Of a stretch of 64,000 nucleotides of DNA, positions 21,826-26,178 are shown piece after piece (the stretch's first letter is position 1; every line of letters starts with the position of its first letter). The stretch spans positions 124,001-188,000 of the forward strand of contig NZ_JAJIRT010000002.1 of NCBI RefSeq assembly GCF_025717675.1, in the 5' to 3' direction. The DNA is from Paucibacter sp. DJ2R-2. Its GTDB lineage: Bacteria > Pseudomonadota > Gammaproteobacteria > Burkholderiales > Burkholderiaceae_C. The translations under genes were made by a program, and so were the position numbers. The notes under the pieces were generated by a model. It was not told the origin of the DNA and did not search any database. It saw only the letters and a list, made by a program, of their open reading frames with translations.

Positions 21826-22040
21826 AACGTCGGCGAGGCAGTCAAAACAGGAAGCGGCGGAGTGTGCCACAGGGGCCCGGCGGTAGCCGCGCGGCCCGCC
21901 CGGGGATTCTCTGGCCCGGCCTAGGCCCAAATAGCCATCTCCAGCAAGCGTCACACATTTGCGCCATATTGCGAGGCGCTTCACGCCACGCGGCCGCCTG
22001 CGCGCAAGCCGCACTTGTCCACCTCAGCCCACCCGCCACC

Positions 22041-22850
22041 ATGATGCACACCCTCCGTCACCTGCCCAGCGTCTGCTTGATCGCCGGCCTCGGCCTGTTC
22101 AGCGCATCCCCTGCCAAGGCCCAGGCCTTCGACACCGCGCGCATCTACGGCGCCGCCCCCGAGCGCGACGGCGGCCGCGTCGGCCTGGTTGCACTGGCCG
22201 GCCATGCCTACCAGGGCTCGAAGAAAAGCCGGGCCATGCTGGTGCCCAGCCTCGACTACCAATGGAGCAATGGCTGGTTCGCCGGCACCAGCAATGGCCT
22301 GGGCCTGAATTTCTCCAAGCAAGCCCAGTTCAGCTACGGCCTGCGCCTGACGGCCGATTTCGGCCGCGATGAAGACCGCTCACCAGCCTTGCGCGGCATG
22401 GGCGACATCGAGTTCCGCCCCGAGATCGGCGGCTTCTTCAATTACAGCCCGAGCCAAAGCTTGGCCCTGACCAGCTCGCTGCGCTATGGCTCCGGCCAGG
22501 ATCGCAAGGGCCTGCTGATCGACCTGGGCGTGGCCCACCAGATCCCGCTGGACGCGAGCTGGCGCCTGGGCGTGGGCGCCGCCCTGACCCTGGCCAACCG
22601 CGAGGCGCTGCAGTCCTACTTCGGCGTCAGCGCGGCCCAGGCGGCCAGCAGCGGCTATGCGCCCTACCGCGTCGGCGCAGGCCTGCGCGATGTGCGGGCC
22701 AATGCTTCGGTCACCCACATCCTCAGCCCGCGCAGCAGCGTAACGGCCGGCCTCTCGGTCAGCGCCCTGCAGGGCGATGCCAAGAACAGCCCGCTGACGC
22801 ACCAGAAAACCAGCGTCAACGGGCTGGTGTCCTTCGGCTACTTGTTCTGA
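22041..22850 (+). CDS. MipA/OmpV-family outer-membrane protein
   Basis: A 269-residue outer-membrane beta-barrel of the MipA/OmpV family. The signal peptide ends at SPAKAQA. Typical features are GGRVGLVALAGHAYQGSKKS, a long series of alternating amphipathic strands and the terminal FGYLF with a C-terminal Phe that serves the BAM assembly signal. In E. coli MipA scaffolds murein synthases, while OmpV-type members are general porin-like proteins. Its 3' end overlaps the convergent PEP-CTERM gene by 13 bp. Confidence 0.88.
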   Translation: MMHTLRHLPSVCLIAGLGLFSASPAKAQAFDTARIYGAAPERDGGRVGLVALAGHAYQGSKKSRAMLVPSLDYQWSNGWFAGTSNGLGLNFSKQAQFSYGLRLTADFGRDEDRSPALRGMGDIEFRPEIGGFFNYSPSQSLALTSSLRYGSGQDRKGLLIDLGVAHQIPLDASWRLGVGAALTLANREALQSYFGVSAAQAASSGYAPYRVGAGLRDVRANASVTHILSPRSSVTAGLSVSALQGDAKNSPLTHQKTSVNGLVSFGYLF

Positions 22851-23503
22851 CCCAGGACGCGGCGGCGCTGCACCAGCCCCAGGCCCAGCAGCCCCGCCAG
22901 CGTCATCGCCAACGCGCCGGGCTCGGGCACGGCGCTGACCTGCAGGCTGCCGCGCCAGTCGATGGGCAGATTACTCGCACCCTGTGCATAGCCCAGGCCA
23001 AGGTTGAGATCGCCCTCGGGGCTGCTGATCTGCAGCCAGGCCTCGCCAGCGCTCAGCAGCTCGAACTGCAGCGCCCCCAGGCTCAGCCAGGACTGGGCGG
23101 CCGCGGCGGCAACACCGGGGAAGTTGGACGCACCGATCTCGCCGGGGCGCAGAAAGCCGCTGTCATCGCTCCAACCTTCGGCTGCGCCAAAGCCCTTGAA
23201 GCGCAGCTGGCTGGGGTCGAAGTCAAGCTTGAAGCCGTAGAACAAAAACACATCGTCGGCGGCACGGCCGGCGAAGGGTTGATCCAGGCGTATCGCCACG
23301 CTGAGGATCTGACCCAGCTGCGCCTGCGCGGGCAACTCCAGGCTCAAGAGCGGCTCCAACGGCAGGCCGGTGGGCGTGATCGCGCCGGCAGCGAAAGTCT
23401 GGGCTGAAGCCAGAGACGAAGCCAGGAGGCCGGCGGCGCCCAGCAATGCGGCCACCAGGTTCGGGCGGCCGAGCTTCGAACTGGCAATAGTTGCGAGTGT
23501 CAT
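22838..23503 (-). CDS. PEP-CTERM surface protein with a cohesin-like domain
   Basis: A 221-residue exported protein. A signal peptide ends around ASSLASAQT. The C-terminus has the tripartite PEP-CTERM sorting signal: VPEPGALAM, a hydrophobic helix (LAGLLGLGL) and basic VQRRR, recognised by an exosortase. The body looks like a cohesin: LELPAQAQLGQILSVAIRLD, then FYGFKLDFDPSQLRFKGF, then LGALQFELLSAGEAWLQISS, which is the strand order and the FDPSxLxF signature of that fold. It starts 23 bp after a dockerin-bearing phospholipase C, so it is the natural docking partner. Export and sorting are well supported; the cohesin assignment is from pattern only. Confidence 0.8.
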   Translation of the reverse strand: MTLATIASSKLGRPNLVAALLGAAGLLASSLASAQTFAAGAITPTGLPLEPLLSLELPAQAQLGQILSVAIRLDQPFAGRAADDVFLFYGFKLDFDPSQLRFKGFGAAEGWSDDSGFLRPGEIGASNFPGVAAAAAQSWLSLGALQFELLSAGEAWLQISSPEGDLNLGLGYAQGASNLPIDWRGSLQVSAVPEPGALAMTLAGLLGLGLVQRRRVLGQNK

Positions 23504-23526
23504 GGTCGTATTCCTGCGTAGGGTGA

Positions 23527-26178
23527 TCAAGGCTTTTGCTGGCGGAAGATGTCGAACCAGGCGCGGTAGTCGGCCTGGGTGATGCAGGCATCGGCATCGA
23601 AATTGGCCAGGGGCTGGTAGCGGCTGTCGCCGGTGCAGGCACCCATGGCGGCGCGCTGGGCCTCGCGGTCGGCGGCGTCGATGCGGCCGTCGCCGTTGAT
23701 GTCGCCGCGCTTGAGCAGGCGCAGGGCCAGGCGCGGCGCCGCTTCCTCGTAACCGTCATTCAGGAACAAGCCGAAGAAGTACTCGCCCTCCGGGAAGCTG
23801 GCCAGGCTGAAGCTCTGGCCGCCGGCCGGCGCGGCCACATAGTTCCACTTCAGCGAACCCGGGCCACCGGGCACCATGCCCTTGCGGTAGAAGCCCAGCC
23901 AATGCTTGTTGCCGGCCGGCAGGCCTTGCCAGCTCAGATTGATACTGTCGCCAATGCGGGAGACGCTGGCCGAGGCGCTGAAGCGCACCGGGTTGACCGG
24001 CGGCGGCGTCGGCACCAGCACCGGCGGCGAATCCTGGGCCTGGGCCAGGCCGTTGAGCACCGGGTCGGTGTAGTCCAGGCCCGCGCCTTCGACATGGCCG
24101 GCCAGGCGGCGCCAGTAAAGGCTCTCGCCTTCCAGCGTCACGCCCAGGTCGTACCAGCCGCGGCTGGCCTCCACGCTGCGGGTCTCGCTGTGGCTTTGGC
24201 CCGGCTGCAGCGTCAGCTCCAGCAGCTTGCCTTGGCCATAGGCCAGATCCACCAACTGGAGGCGCAGGACCTGGTTGCTGCTGTTGCTGTACTGCAGGCG
24301 CACGCTGCGGCTGGCCGGCTCTTCACGCAGGCTCACCTCCAACTGGCGCGCCGCGCTGCCCAGCGCACCGCTGAACTCGCGCACAAAACCGTTCTGGCCA
24401 TGGACCTTGAGTTGGTAGCTATCGCCGCTCCAGTTCCAGACCTCGCGCTCGACGCGCGTGCCGGCGGCCAGGGTGTAGTGCCAGGGGCCGTCGCTGCGCA
24501 GGGCGGAGTAGACGATGAAGGGCTCGGCCACCGTGCCGCCATTGCCGAAGCTCAAAGCGAACTGGCGGGCCGTGCCTTGCACGGCGCCGTCCACCTCGGC
24601 GCGGTAGGGCATGGGGCAGGCCGGGCGCGGCTGGCCGGTGCTGACCTGCTCCTGGCGCGGCAGCACCTGGGCGGCGGGCGGCCAGGCCGGCGCGGTGGCG
24701 TCGTACTTGGGGTACTCAGCCGTGCGCGGCACGCCGGCCGGCCAGGTCGGGTTCGGCTCGTCGAAGTTGAAGACGCTGAGCAAGTCACCGCACACCGCAC
24801 GGCGCCAGGGCGAGATATTGGCGCACTGCACGGCCGCACGCGGCAGGCCCTTGCCCTGCACCAGCCACTCTTCGAGGAAACGGATCTGCGAGGTGTGGTC
24901 GAAGAGCTGGGAGTTGACGCGCCCGCCCTTGCTCCAGGGCGAGATCACCAGGGTCGGCACGCGCGGGCCCAGGCCGATCGGCTCGCTGCCGTTGTAAACC
25001 TCGCCCTGCAAGCTGTTGGCCACCGTGCTGCGGCCGCGGCCGGCGTCCATGGGCGGCACGTTCGAGGGCATGTGGTCGAAGAAGCCGTCGTTCTCGTCGT
25101 AGGTGATGATGAGCACGGTCTTGGCCCAGACCTCAGGCTTGTCGACCAGGGCGGCCAGCAGGCGGGCGCTGAAGTTCTCGCCGGCATTGGGCGTGGGCGA
25201 GGGATGCTCGCAGTACTCTGTCGGCGCGCAGATCCAGGACACGGCCGGCAGGCGCCCTTCGCGCACATCGGCGGCAAAGTCATCGATCAGCCACTGGCCG
25301 GTGGTTTGCGCGGAATTCGATGCATTCGAGCCCGGGGCCATGGCGCGGCACTTCTGGTACAGCGGCGATTCGGGCGTCAGCTTGCGGCCGGCCGCGTCGA
25401 CGCGGAAGTTCTTGAAGTACTGCAGGTAGTTGTCGCCGTAGTTGTCCCACTCCTGGTAGACCTTCCAGCTCACGCCTTGCGCCTCCAGCACCTCGGCATA
25501 GCTTTGCCAGCTGATGCCCTGGGCAGCGGGGTTGTCGTTGGCGATGTCGGCGTTGTAGGTGCCGTTGGTGACGTTGTAGAGCCGGCTGTCCGAGATGCCG
25601 GTGACGTAGCCGGCCGTGTGGCCGCTCAGGGCATAGAAGCGGTTCGGGTCGGTGGGGCCGAAGACCGAGCAGTGGTAGGCATCACAGGTGGTGAAGGCAT
25701 CGGCCAGGGCGTAGTAGAACGGCAGATCGCCGCGGTCGAAATAGCCCAGGGACATGGAGGTCTTCTTGGGCACCCAGACGTTCCAGTCCTTCCAGGCGGC
25801 TTCCGTGCCCTTCCAGTGGTGGTCCAGGCCGACGTGCAAGGCGTTGGTGTTCTTGACGTCGTAGTGGTAGGGCAGCACATGGCTGCTGCCGCTGGGCTGG
25901 AACCAGACCGGCTTGCCCGAGGGCAAGGTGATGGCGCGCGGATCGCTGAAGCCGCGCACGCCGGCCAGGCAGCCGAAGTAATGGTCGAAGGAGCGGTTTT
26001 CCTGCATCAGGAAGACCACATGCTCGATGTCGCCGAGGCCGCCGCTGACGTGGCTGGCCGGTGTGGCCAGGGCGCGGGCGATGGTCTGGGCAAAGCTGGG
26101 CGTGCTGGCCAGGCCGGCAGTACCGGCAGCGGCGGCCAGAAAGCCGCGGCGGGAGGGGTTTTGAATTATTCTGCTCAT
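23527..26178 (-). CDS. Tat-exported phosphocholine-type phospholipase C with a C-terminal dockerin-like domain
   Basis: An 883-residue secreted hydrolase that should cleave phospholipid headgroups. The N-terminus has a twin-arginine signal (SRRGFLAAAAGTAG). The catalytic domain of the phosphoesterase/PLC family follows (IEHVVFLMQENRSFDHYFGC, ITYDENDGFFDHMPS, TLVISPWSKGGRVNSQLFDH), then two DUF756-type C-terminal domains (about 530-720) and a beta-sandwich domain (about 730-820). Residues 824-883 are a type I dockerin-like tail with two calcium-loop-like motifs, DINGDGRIDAAD and NFDADACITQAD, plus two cysteines. A standard enzyme of this family lacks the last part. Start ATG 26178 is chosen for the Tat signal. 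It is cotranscribed with the cohesin-like PEP-CTERM gene. Confidence 0.9.
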   Translation of the reverse strand: MSRIIQNPSRRGFLAAAAGTAGLASTPSFAQTIARALATPASHVSGGLGDIEHVVFLMQENRSFDHYFGCLAGVRGFSDPRAITLPSGKPVWFQPSGSSHVLPYHYDVKNTNALHVGLDHHWKGTEAAWKDWNVWVPKKTSMSLGYFDRGDLPFYYALADAFTTCDAYHCSVFGPTDPNRFYALSGHTAGYVTGISDSRLYNVTNGTYNADIANDNPAAQGISWQSYAEVLEAQGVSWKVYQEWDNYGDNYLQYFKNFRVDAAGRKLTPESPLYQKCRAMAPGSNASNSAQTTGQWLIDDFAADVREGRLPAVSWICAPTEYCEHPSPTPNAGENFSARLLAALVDKPEVWAKTVLIITYDENDGFFDHMPSNVPPMDAGRGRSTVANSLQGEVYNGSEPIGLGPRVPTLVISPWSKGGRVNSQLFDHTSQIRFLEEWLVQGKGLPRAAVQCANISPWRRAVCGDLLSVFNFDEPNPTWPAGVPRTAEYPKYDATAPAWPPAAQVLPRQEQVSTGQPRPACPMPYRAEVDGAVQGTARQFALSFGNGGTVAEPFIVYSALRSDGPWHYTLAAGTRVEREVWNWSGDSYQLKVHGQNGFVREFSGALGSAARQLEVSLREEPASRSVRLQYSNSSNQVLRLQLVDLAYGQGKLLELTLQPGQSHSETRSVEASRGWYDLGVTLEGESLYWRRLAGHVEGAGLDYTDPVLNGLAQAQDSPPVLVPTPPPVNPVRFSASASVSRIGDSINLSWQGLPAGNKHWLGFYRKGMVPGGPGSLKWNYVAAPAGGQSFSLASFPEGEYFFGLFLNDGYEEAAPRLALRLLKRGDINGDGRIDAADREAQRAAMGACTGDSRYQPLANFDADACITQADYRAWFDIFRQQKP

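Follow-up and report, generated by a model that had tools for sequence, protein, structure and literature searches.

Two neighbouring genes of Paucibacter sp. DJ2R-2, lying in a 64,000-nucleotide stretch of contig NZ_JAJIRT010000002.1 (the window), likely encode a dedicated docking pair, namely a phospholipase C with a C-terminal dockerin-like tail and a PEP-CTERM protein with a cohesin-fold body that would bind this tail and hold the enzyme at the cell surface or in the matrix. The domain homology, the predicted cohesin fold, the pairing of the genes and an immunoglobulin (Ig)-like plus dockerin end shared with an unrelated phosphatase all come from computation. They point to what is probably a real and functional docking pair, whose sequences have diverged and which is one of a larger group of cohesin-PEP-CTERM/dockerin pairs. 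An earlier note on this DNA had proposed such a pair, and its interpretation is largely supported, in that the cohesin fold, the paired calcium loops and the co-occurrence of the two genes all held.

The gene pair and its enzyme

The phospholipase C gene runs on the minus strand from an ATG at 26178 to a stop codon at 23529-23527. The PEP-CTERM gene follows 23 bp downstream on the same strand, with its ATG at 23503 and a stop codon ending at 22838, so that the start and stop coordinates confirm the positions and the 23-bp spacing reported earlier. The enzyme had also been described as a Tat (twin-arginine translocation)-exported phospholipase C. Its identity stands, with 732 bits against the TIGR03396 equivalog (cut-off 580), and a twin-arginine motif, SRRGFL, is present, but the Tat models score below their cut-offs (14.2 against 22.7 bits and 11.9 against 16.7 bits). 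The phospholipase C of PDB entry 9gy2 aligns with enzyme residues 7-708, and the family match stops near residue 708. Everything from about residue 709 to the end at 883 is therefore an add-on to the enzyme.

The dockerin-like tail

Sequence comparisons indicate that the end of this add-on is a divergent dockerin. The tail carries two calcium loops with D/N ligands at positions 1, 3, 5 and 12, as in type I dockerins, position 1 of loop 2 being N. Across 12 aligned tails G9, D10, N12 and D14 of loop 1 and D45, D47 and D54 of loop 2 are invariant, as are two cysteines, one within loop 2 and the other preceding it. The remaining loop positions are variable, one tail having S for G15 and loop 2 beginning with either N or D. 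All 12 tails match Dockerin_1 (PF00404) at E≤1, the best with E 5e-4.

A profile of the 12 tails searched against the PDB gave as its best match 2y3n_B (E 4e-4). This chain is a fragment of 71 residues from a cellulosomal GH48 enzyme, and we take it to be the dockerin of that enzyme. The alignment spans both calcium loops, in agreement with the pair of loops that the earlier note had read in the tail. Named type I dockerins rank second and third and are followed by EF-hand proteins. Furthermore, the tail profile aligned by hhalign with 20 dockerins of other pairs at 97.1% (E 7e-11, 54 columns), and the window tail matched a Pfam-true dockerin encoded elsewhere in the same genome (E 1e-4, 35% identity).

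The predicted cohesin-fold body

The downstream protein bears a PEP-CTERM sorting signal by both PF07589 (21.3 bits, cut-off 20.7) and TIGR02595 (19.9, cut-off 16), and the window's genome contains three matches to exosortase (PF09721). The AlphaFold2 model of the protein, built from a 13-row alignment, has a mean pLDDT (predicted local distance difference test score) of 71, with ten-residue means of 70-94 over residues 51-190, and predicts for the body the nine strands of a cohesin β-sandwich. Foldseek returned 39 matches of the body in the PDB at E≤0.001, of which 38 are cohesins, complexes of cohesin with dockerin or of scaffoldin, or interaction modules related to these. These classes were taken from the PDB titles save for 2o4e and 3kcp, whose titles do not name a cohesin but which presumably contain one. 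The model is thus consistent with the cohesin fold proposed earlier for this body.

Comparison of profiles leads to a similar result. Fourteen bodies of the window type aligned by hhalign with 21 partner proteins of other pairs at 97.0% (E 1.2e-10; 97.2% in a second run), whereas two control sets of PEP-CTERM bodies of other types, also from the genus (6 and 5 sequences), gave 0.0% and 0.6% against the window type. The case for a cohesin in the window body is one of fold and of profile-profile comparison. It is thus as a family that the bodies are related to cohesins, and the phospholipase-type members are the divergent end of this family: they score low in a hidden Markov model (HMM) of the 21 other cohesins in which phosphatase-type bodies reach 22-33 bits. 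Against the propeller-type cohesins alone, the window type reaches 13% by hhalign.

Table 1. Coordinates of the gene pair and its parts in the window.
Feature	Position	Strand	Basis
Phosphocholine-specific phospholipase C, 883 aa, with Tat-type signal and C-terminal add-on	23527..26178	-	TIGR03396, PF04185, PF05506, PDB 9gy2
Ig-like domain of the add-on, about residues 729-816	23731..23994	-	Ig-like by eye, without a Pfam match
Dockerin-like tail, residues 817-883	23530..23730	-	Weak Dockerin_1 matches, PDB 2y3n_B, hhalign 97.1%
Calcium loop 1 DINGDGRIDAAD, residues 826-837	23668..23703	-	Sequence and tail alignment
Calcium loop 2 NFDADACITQAD, residues 859-870	23569..23604	-	Sequence and tail alignment
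Single-cohesin PEP-CTERM protein, 221 aa, proposed receptor	22838..23503	-	PF07589 above cut-off; structure model and Foldseek
Cohesin-fold body, residues 49-189, nine predicted strands between 52 and 189	22937..23359	-	Model, Foldseek, hhalign
PEP-CTERM sorting signal (VPEP, hydrophobic helix, basic end), residues 192-221	22841..22930	-	PF07589; model helix 195-218

Several results, here and in the sections that follow, weigh against a docking pair. Direct HMM checks of the two domains, which the earlier note had suggested, came out negative: the window tail scores 17.8 bits against PF00404 by itself and 13.4 bits within the whole protein, both short of the cut-off of 22.9, and the window PEP-CTERM protein has no match to PF00963 (cut-off 24.1 bits), one of 13 relatives matching at E 0.26. 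No cohesin was found when the profile of the PEP-CTERM proteins was searched by sequence against the PDB. In the HMM of the 21 other cohesins the window body scores 11.4 bits and the control body F_L143 11.0, which is above a window-type body, that of L053 (9.1 bits). One of the 39 Foldseek matches, YcnI (E 6e-4), is not a cohesin, and the listed rows reach template modelling (TM) scores of at most 0.73 on the target (2vo8) and 0.47 on the query. The structure model of the tail (mean pLDDT 59) places a helix after each loop, but its top hit in Foldseek, at E 1.8, is an EF-hand protein. This model was too poor and was excluded from the evidence.

These are the results on which a chance resemblance would draw, the body being a generic β-sandwich and the tail an EF-hand-like calcium motif with no part in docking: both domains miss their Pfam cut-offs, EF-hand proteins occur among the PDB matches of the tail, and a control body equals the window body in one HMM test. 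We regard coincidence of this kind as very improbable, given that the Foldseek list consists of cohesins save for one entry, that profile-profile comparison gives 97% for the tail and for the body alike, and that tail and body are strictly paired.

Recurrence of the pair and apparent exchange of the enzyme

A search of public genomes with the tail yielded 16 loci, 11 of them strong (L053-L063). The hosts of the strong loci are Paucibacter, a Rubrivivax metagenome-assembled genome (MAG), Methyloversatilis, Parazoarcus, an Aquabacterium MAG, other Burkholderiales and a gammaproteobacterial MAG. The other five (L064-L068) are generic dockerins of other phyla and were left out. In all 11 strong loci a homologous PEP-CTERM gene lies on the same strand and starts about 60 bp or less from the stop codon of the enzyme gene. 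A second search, with the window PEP-CTERM protein, matched 24 genomes; G000, G075 and G077, whose matches span the body, were followed. The remaining matches fall mostly on the sorting signal (those in G011, G077 C1 and G111 extend further and were left out). Counting once each of G077, G153, G156 and G158, which two search tools both returned, and adding the window, G075 (found through the PEP-CTERM protein) and G196 to L053-L063 gives 14 loci, and tail and homologous PEP-CTERM gene adjoin in 14 of 14. The two-gene order for which the earlier note proposed a survey does therefore recur in relatives, although these loci are not 14 independent events, because they are related by descent.

Reciprocal searches of 399 genomes of the order found a strong tail in two genomes and a strong body in those same two. 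Weak tail matches occurred in G219 and in giant frames of G218 and G302. In G219 the match is an M12B-type protein with a dockerin, adjoining a cohesin-PEP-CTERM gene (L122). Similarly, a weak body match in G354 is a cohesin-PEP-CTERM protein that adjoins a dockerin protein, C25-like by eye.

The enzyme in these loci is of two kinds. It is a phospholipase C in six of the 14 (the window, L005, L053, L054, L056 and L121) and a purple-acid-phosphatase-like protein with Ig-like repeats in the other eight, a class assigned by Pfam for L034 (the same locus as L059) and by similarity for the other seven. Over window residues 729-881 the identity with residues 871-1022 of the L034 phosphatase protein is 49%, and shorter stretches of the window Ig-like and tail region match earlier repeats of that protein. 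The catalytic parts of the two enzymes are unrelated. Because unrelated catalytic parts end in such similar sequence, the Ig-dockerin end and the cohesin gene seem to have moved together onto another enzyme, in the manner of a docking cassette.

In one of these loci, from the gammaproteobacterial MAG (L057, 6171-7376), the PEP-CTERM protein has an extra N-terminal domain ahead of the cohesin, which by eye resembles the NLIxNGxAE bodies described in the next section.

Phospholipases without a tail

TIGR03396 is matched in 16 of 18 genomes of the genus and above its cut-off in 12. The copies above cut-off comprise 13 without a tail and three with one; a fourth tailed copy, in G158, is broken by a contig end. 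The window's genome itself holds a second phospholipase, 36% identical to the first and tail-less (L143, on contig C29). A motif scan of 12 of the 13 tail-less copies (loci L136-L147, from relatives within the genus; G157 C12 was left out) showed that all 12 adjoin PEP-CTERM-like genes, 11 of them on both sides, and Pfam confirms PEP-CTERM for two neighbours of the tail-less copy in the window's genome. The proteins of six loci were inspected, and their bodies begin with NLIxNGxAE or FDDLxDG. We therefore rejected a PEP-CTERM gene beside a phospholipase as evidence in its own right: such neighbours are common for these enzymes, and only the matched combination of dockerin and cohesin is informative.

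Given these neighbours, something other than docking may link the phospholipase to PEP-CTERM proteins. The downstream protein could be a generic surface PEP-CTERM protein co-expressed with the enzyme, for example in phosphate or lipid scavenging, with the tail binding something else or stabilising the enzyme through calcium. Such a neighbourhood needs no dockerin, as the 12 tail-less loci demonstrate, and dockerins lacking a cohesin are common, PF00404 being matched at E≤0.01 in 66 of 299 genomes of the family, of which 25 also have any cohesin match; most of the family-wide PF00404 matches have no cohesin match nearby. Nevertheless we find a generic neighbour unlikely. The 11 bodies compared from the tail-less loci are those of the two control types above and are not cohesin-like by hhalign, whereas the cohesin body tracks the tail in all 14 loci and in the same two of the 399 order genomes, and does so beside an unrelated phosphatase as well. 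The tail-less enzymes, for their part, may have other means of associating with PEP-CTERM proteins, through partners of another kind.

Cohesin and dockerin pairs across the family

In Burkholderiales the window pair is one member of a larger group of pairs with one enzyme and one receptor each. PF00963 is matched (E≤0.001) in 35 of the 299 family genomes. The 45 cohesin matches fall into 23 short and 22 long frames, a split that was set after the list had been seen and that uses the gap between 682 and 798 aa. A dockerin (E≤0.01) lies within 5 kb of 18 of the 23 short frames and of none of the 22 long ones, where random placement in 5-Mb genomes predicts about 0.12 such neighbours for all 45 cohesin frames. 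At the level of genomes, a dockerin is present in 17 of the 19 that contain a short cohesin and in 49 of the 280 that do not (Fisher p 1e-10). A nineteenth short cohesin, in G157 C1, adjoins a propeller-like protein with a dockerin motif that is not among the PF00404 matches. As for the other four, that of G567 lies at a contig end, that of G670 C134 has its nearest dockerin match 14 kb off, and for those of G056 and G587 C1:1130800 no dockerin was found in the stretches inspected.

Of 21 partner proteins (the 18 together with L122, L125 and L135), 20 match Cohesin and 17 match PEP-CTERM at E≤0.001. Each is about 185-211 aa long and therefore has space for one cohesin. Pfam, run on 10 dockerin or dockerin-tail proteins besides that of the window, identified among their dockerin neighbours an M20, two C25, a GH10 and an M12B protein and left two propeller-like proteins on weak or no matches; the remaining classes were assigned by similarity or by eye. 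L117 combines PKD with two dockerins and has no enzyme class by Pfam, and L106 is a phosphatidylinositol (PI)-specific phospholipase C by its PDB match to 1aod (E 3e-13). Gene order varies, with the cohesin gene downstream, upstream or divergent. The window's genome contains a second pair (L003, 6656-11110), in which a dockerin protein, M12B-like by eye and with a Pfam-true dockerin, is encoded beside a divergent cohesin-PEP-CTERM gene.

It appears fairly probable, on this basis, that there is a general system of modular display in Burkholderiales and one gammaproteobacterium (a MAG), in which single-cohesin exosortase substrates would each pair with one dockerin-tagged exported protein and the module would move between unrelated enzymes. 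Diderm bacteria would thereby have an alternative to cellulosomes with one receptor per enzyme. The proteins concerned are phospholipases, a phosphatase, a xylanase-type hydrolase, three peptidase classes and propeller-like proteins.

The cysteines of these dockerins follow another pattern than in the window-type tails. In L104, L106, L108, L109, L111, L112, L114, L118-L120 and L122 the first loop holds one cysteine and a second stands at the C-terminus or close to it, and both arrangements could be disulphide clasps. Other cohesins and dockerins of the relatives occur in larger proteins. All three of the 22 long cohesin frames that were tested (L083, L088 and L097) are secretins (PF00263) with a C-terminal cohesin, and giant cohesin frames are present in G082, G653 and G062. 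Dockerin matches are found in giant open frames of about 7,000-15,000 aa in G218, G302, G034 C10, G605, G103 and others; the PF00963 scan gave no cohesin match in the genomes of G034, G605 and G103.

The second pair in the window's genome and the secretins of its relatives raise the question of a shared scaffold, whereby the cohesin-PEP-CTERM protein would capture dockerin enzymes of several loci or of neighbouring cells, or other cohesins, such as those of the second pair or of the secretins, would catch the window dockerin. The receptors inspected, however, have room for one cohesin each, and the dockerin of the second pair is distant from that of the window. Distances among cohesins and among dockerins correlate over 34 pairs (r 0.85, reached in none of 2000 shuffles; r 0.74 between classes), with L117 left out since its dockerins are not C-terminal and with extra upstream residues in the cut-outs of L105, L110, L113 and L116. 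This fits dedicated partners but also simple co-inheritance. We did not use the correlation as proof of dedicated partners, because adjacent genes are inherited together. A shared scaffold seems to us quite improbable, and we retain the dedicated pair as our reading.

Surroundings of the gene pair

The PEP-CTERM gene shares its last 13 bp (22838-22850) with a convergent gene at 21864-22850 on the plus strand, whose product has by eye the appearance of an outer-membrane protein. A Pho-box search of the window gave three sites against 3.3 expected, none of them close to the two genes, and the search for promoter-like sites found none. Terminator-like sites numbered three, with 1.9 expected.

Discussion

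From these comparisons we propose the following model. The phospholipase would be exported folded through Tat, carrying its dockerin at the C-terminus. The product of the downstream gene would be a single cohesin that begins with a signal peptide and ends in a PEP-CTERM tail, and an exosortase would be expected to sort it to the cell exterior as for other members of its family. Because the calcium-loaded dockerin would bind this cohesin non-covalently, the enzyme would be retained at the surface or in the extracellular matrix and not be lost by diffusion, and phosphate freed from lipid heads would stay close to the cell. Both enzymes, phospholipase and phosphatase, release phosphate, which makes a role in phosphate scavenging plausible, although the Pho-box search gave no site near the genes.

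The pair resembles the type I cohesin-dockerin pairs of cellulosomes (PF00963/PF00404) in its duplicated calcium-loop enzyme tail, its predicted nine-strand body and the kinship of profiles and predicted fold. It differs in having one cohesin per receptor, an enzyme that is not a cellulase, and a PEP-CTERM signal in place of anchoring by S-layer or sortase; moreover, loop 2 of the tail is divergent and the two invariant cysteines set it apart from cellulosomal dockerins. No scaffoldin with several cohesins was found in the window's genome, which has one PF00963 match (a single-cohesin protein) in addition to the window body, in agreement with the earlier note, which had placed the pair outside any cellulosome.

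Cohesins and dockerins that occur outside cellulosomes are a further comparison, the difference here being that each cohesin sits on a PEP-CTERM protein encoded beside a specific exported dockerin protein. Cohesin modules of Clostridium perfringens glycoside hydrolases (2vo8, 2jh2 and 2w1n) are among the ten best fold matches of the window body. These modules have a noncellulosomal use. In that organism the cohesin is part of the secreted enzyme, whereas in the window it stands alone on a sorted anchor. The enzyme itself resembles secreted phosphocholine-specific phospholipase C (TIGR03396; 9gy2) over residues 7-708 but adds the Ig-like and dockerin domains, which the other copy in the genome lacks.

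With respect to PEP-CTERM/exosortase sorting (TIGR02595, PF07589, PF09721), the window receptor has the signal and the genome has the exosortase, but the body of the receptor, as a predicted docking domain, would serve to display a second protein. No description of a display role for a PEP-CTERM body was found in the literature searched, nor was a dockerin joined with PEP-CTERM, most subscription papers lying outside that search. Within these bounds the view that no system of this kind has been described also holds. According to PMC5244752 it is not known what the two modules do when they occur apart from cellulosomes, and PMC7071664 treats both as cellulosome parts.

An exosortase substrate that serves as the cohesin for a named enzyme would offer one testable answer both on noncellulosomal cohesins and on the function of PEP-CTERM proteins, which to our knowledge is largely open once they have been sorted. 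Such loci would furthermore be a source of small docking pairs, matched by nature, with which proteins could be displayed on the surface of Gram-negative bacteria.

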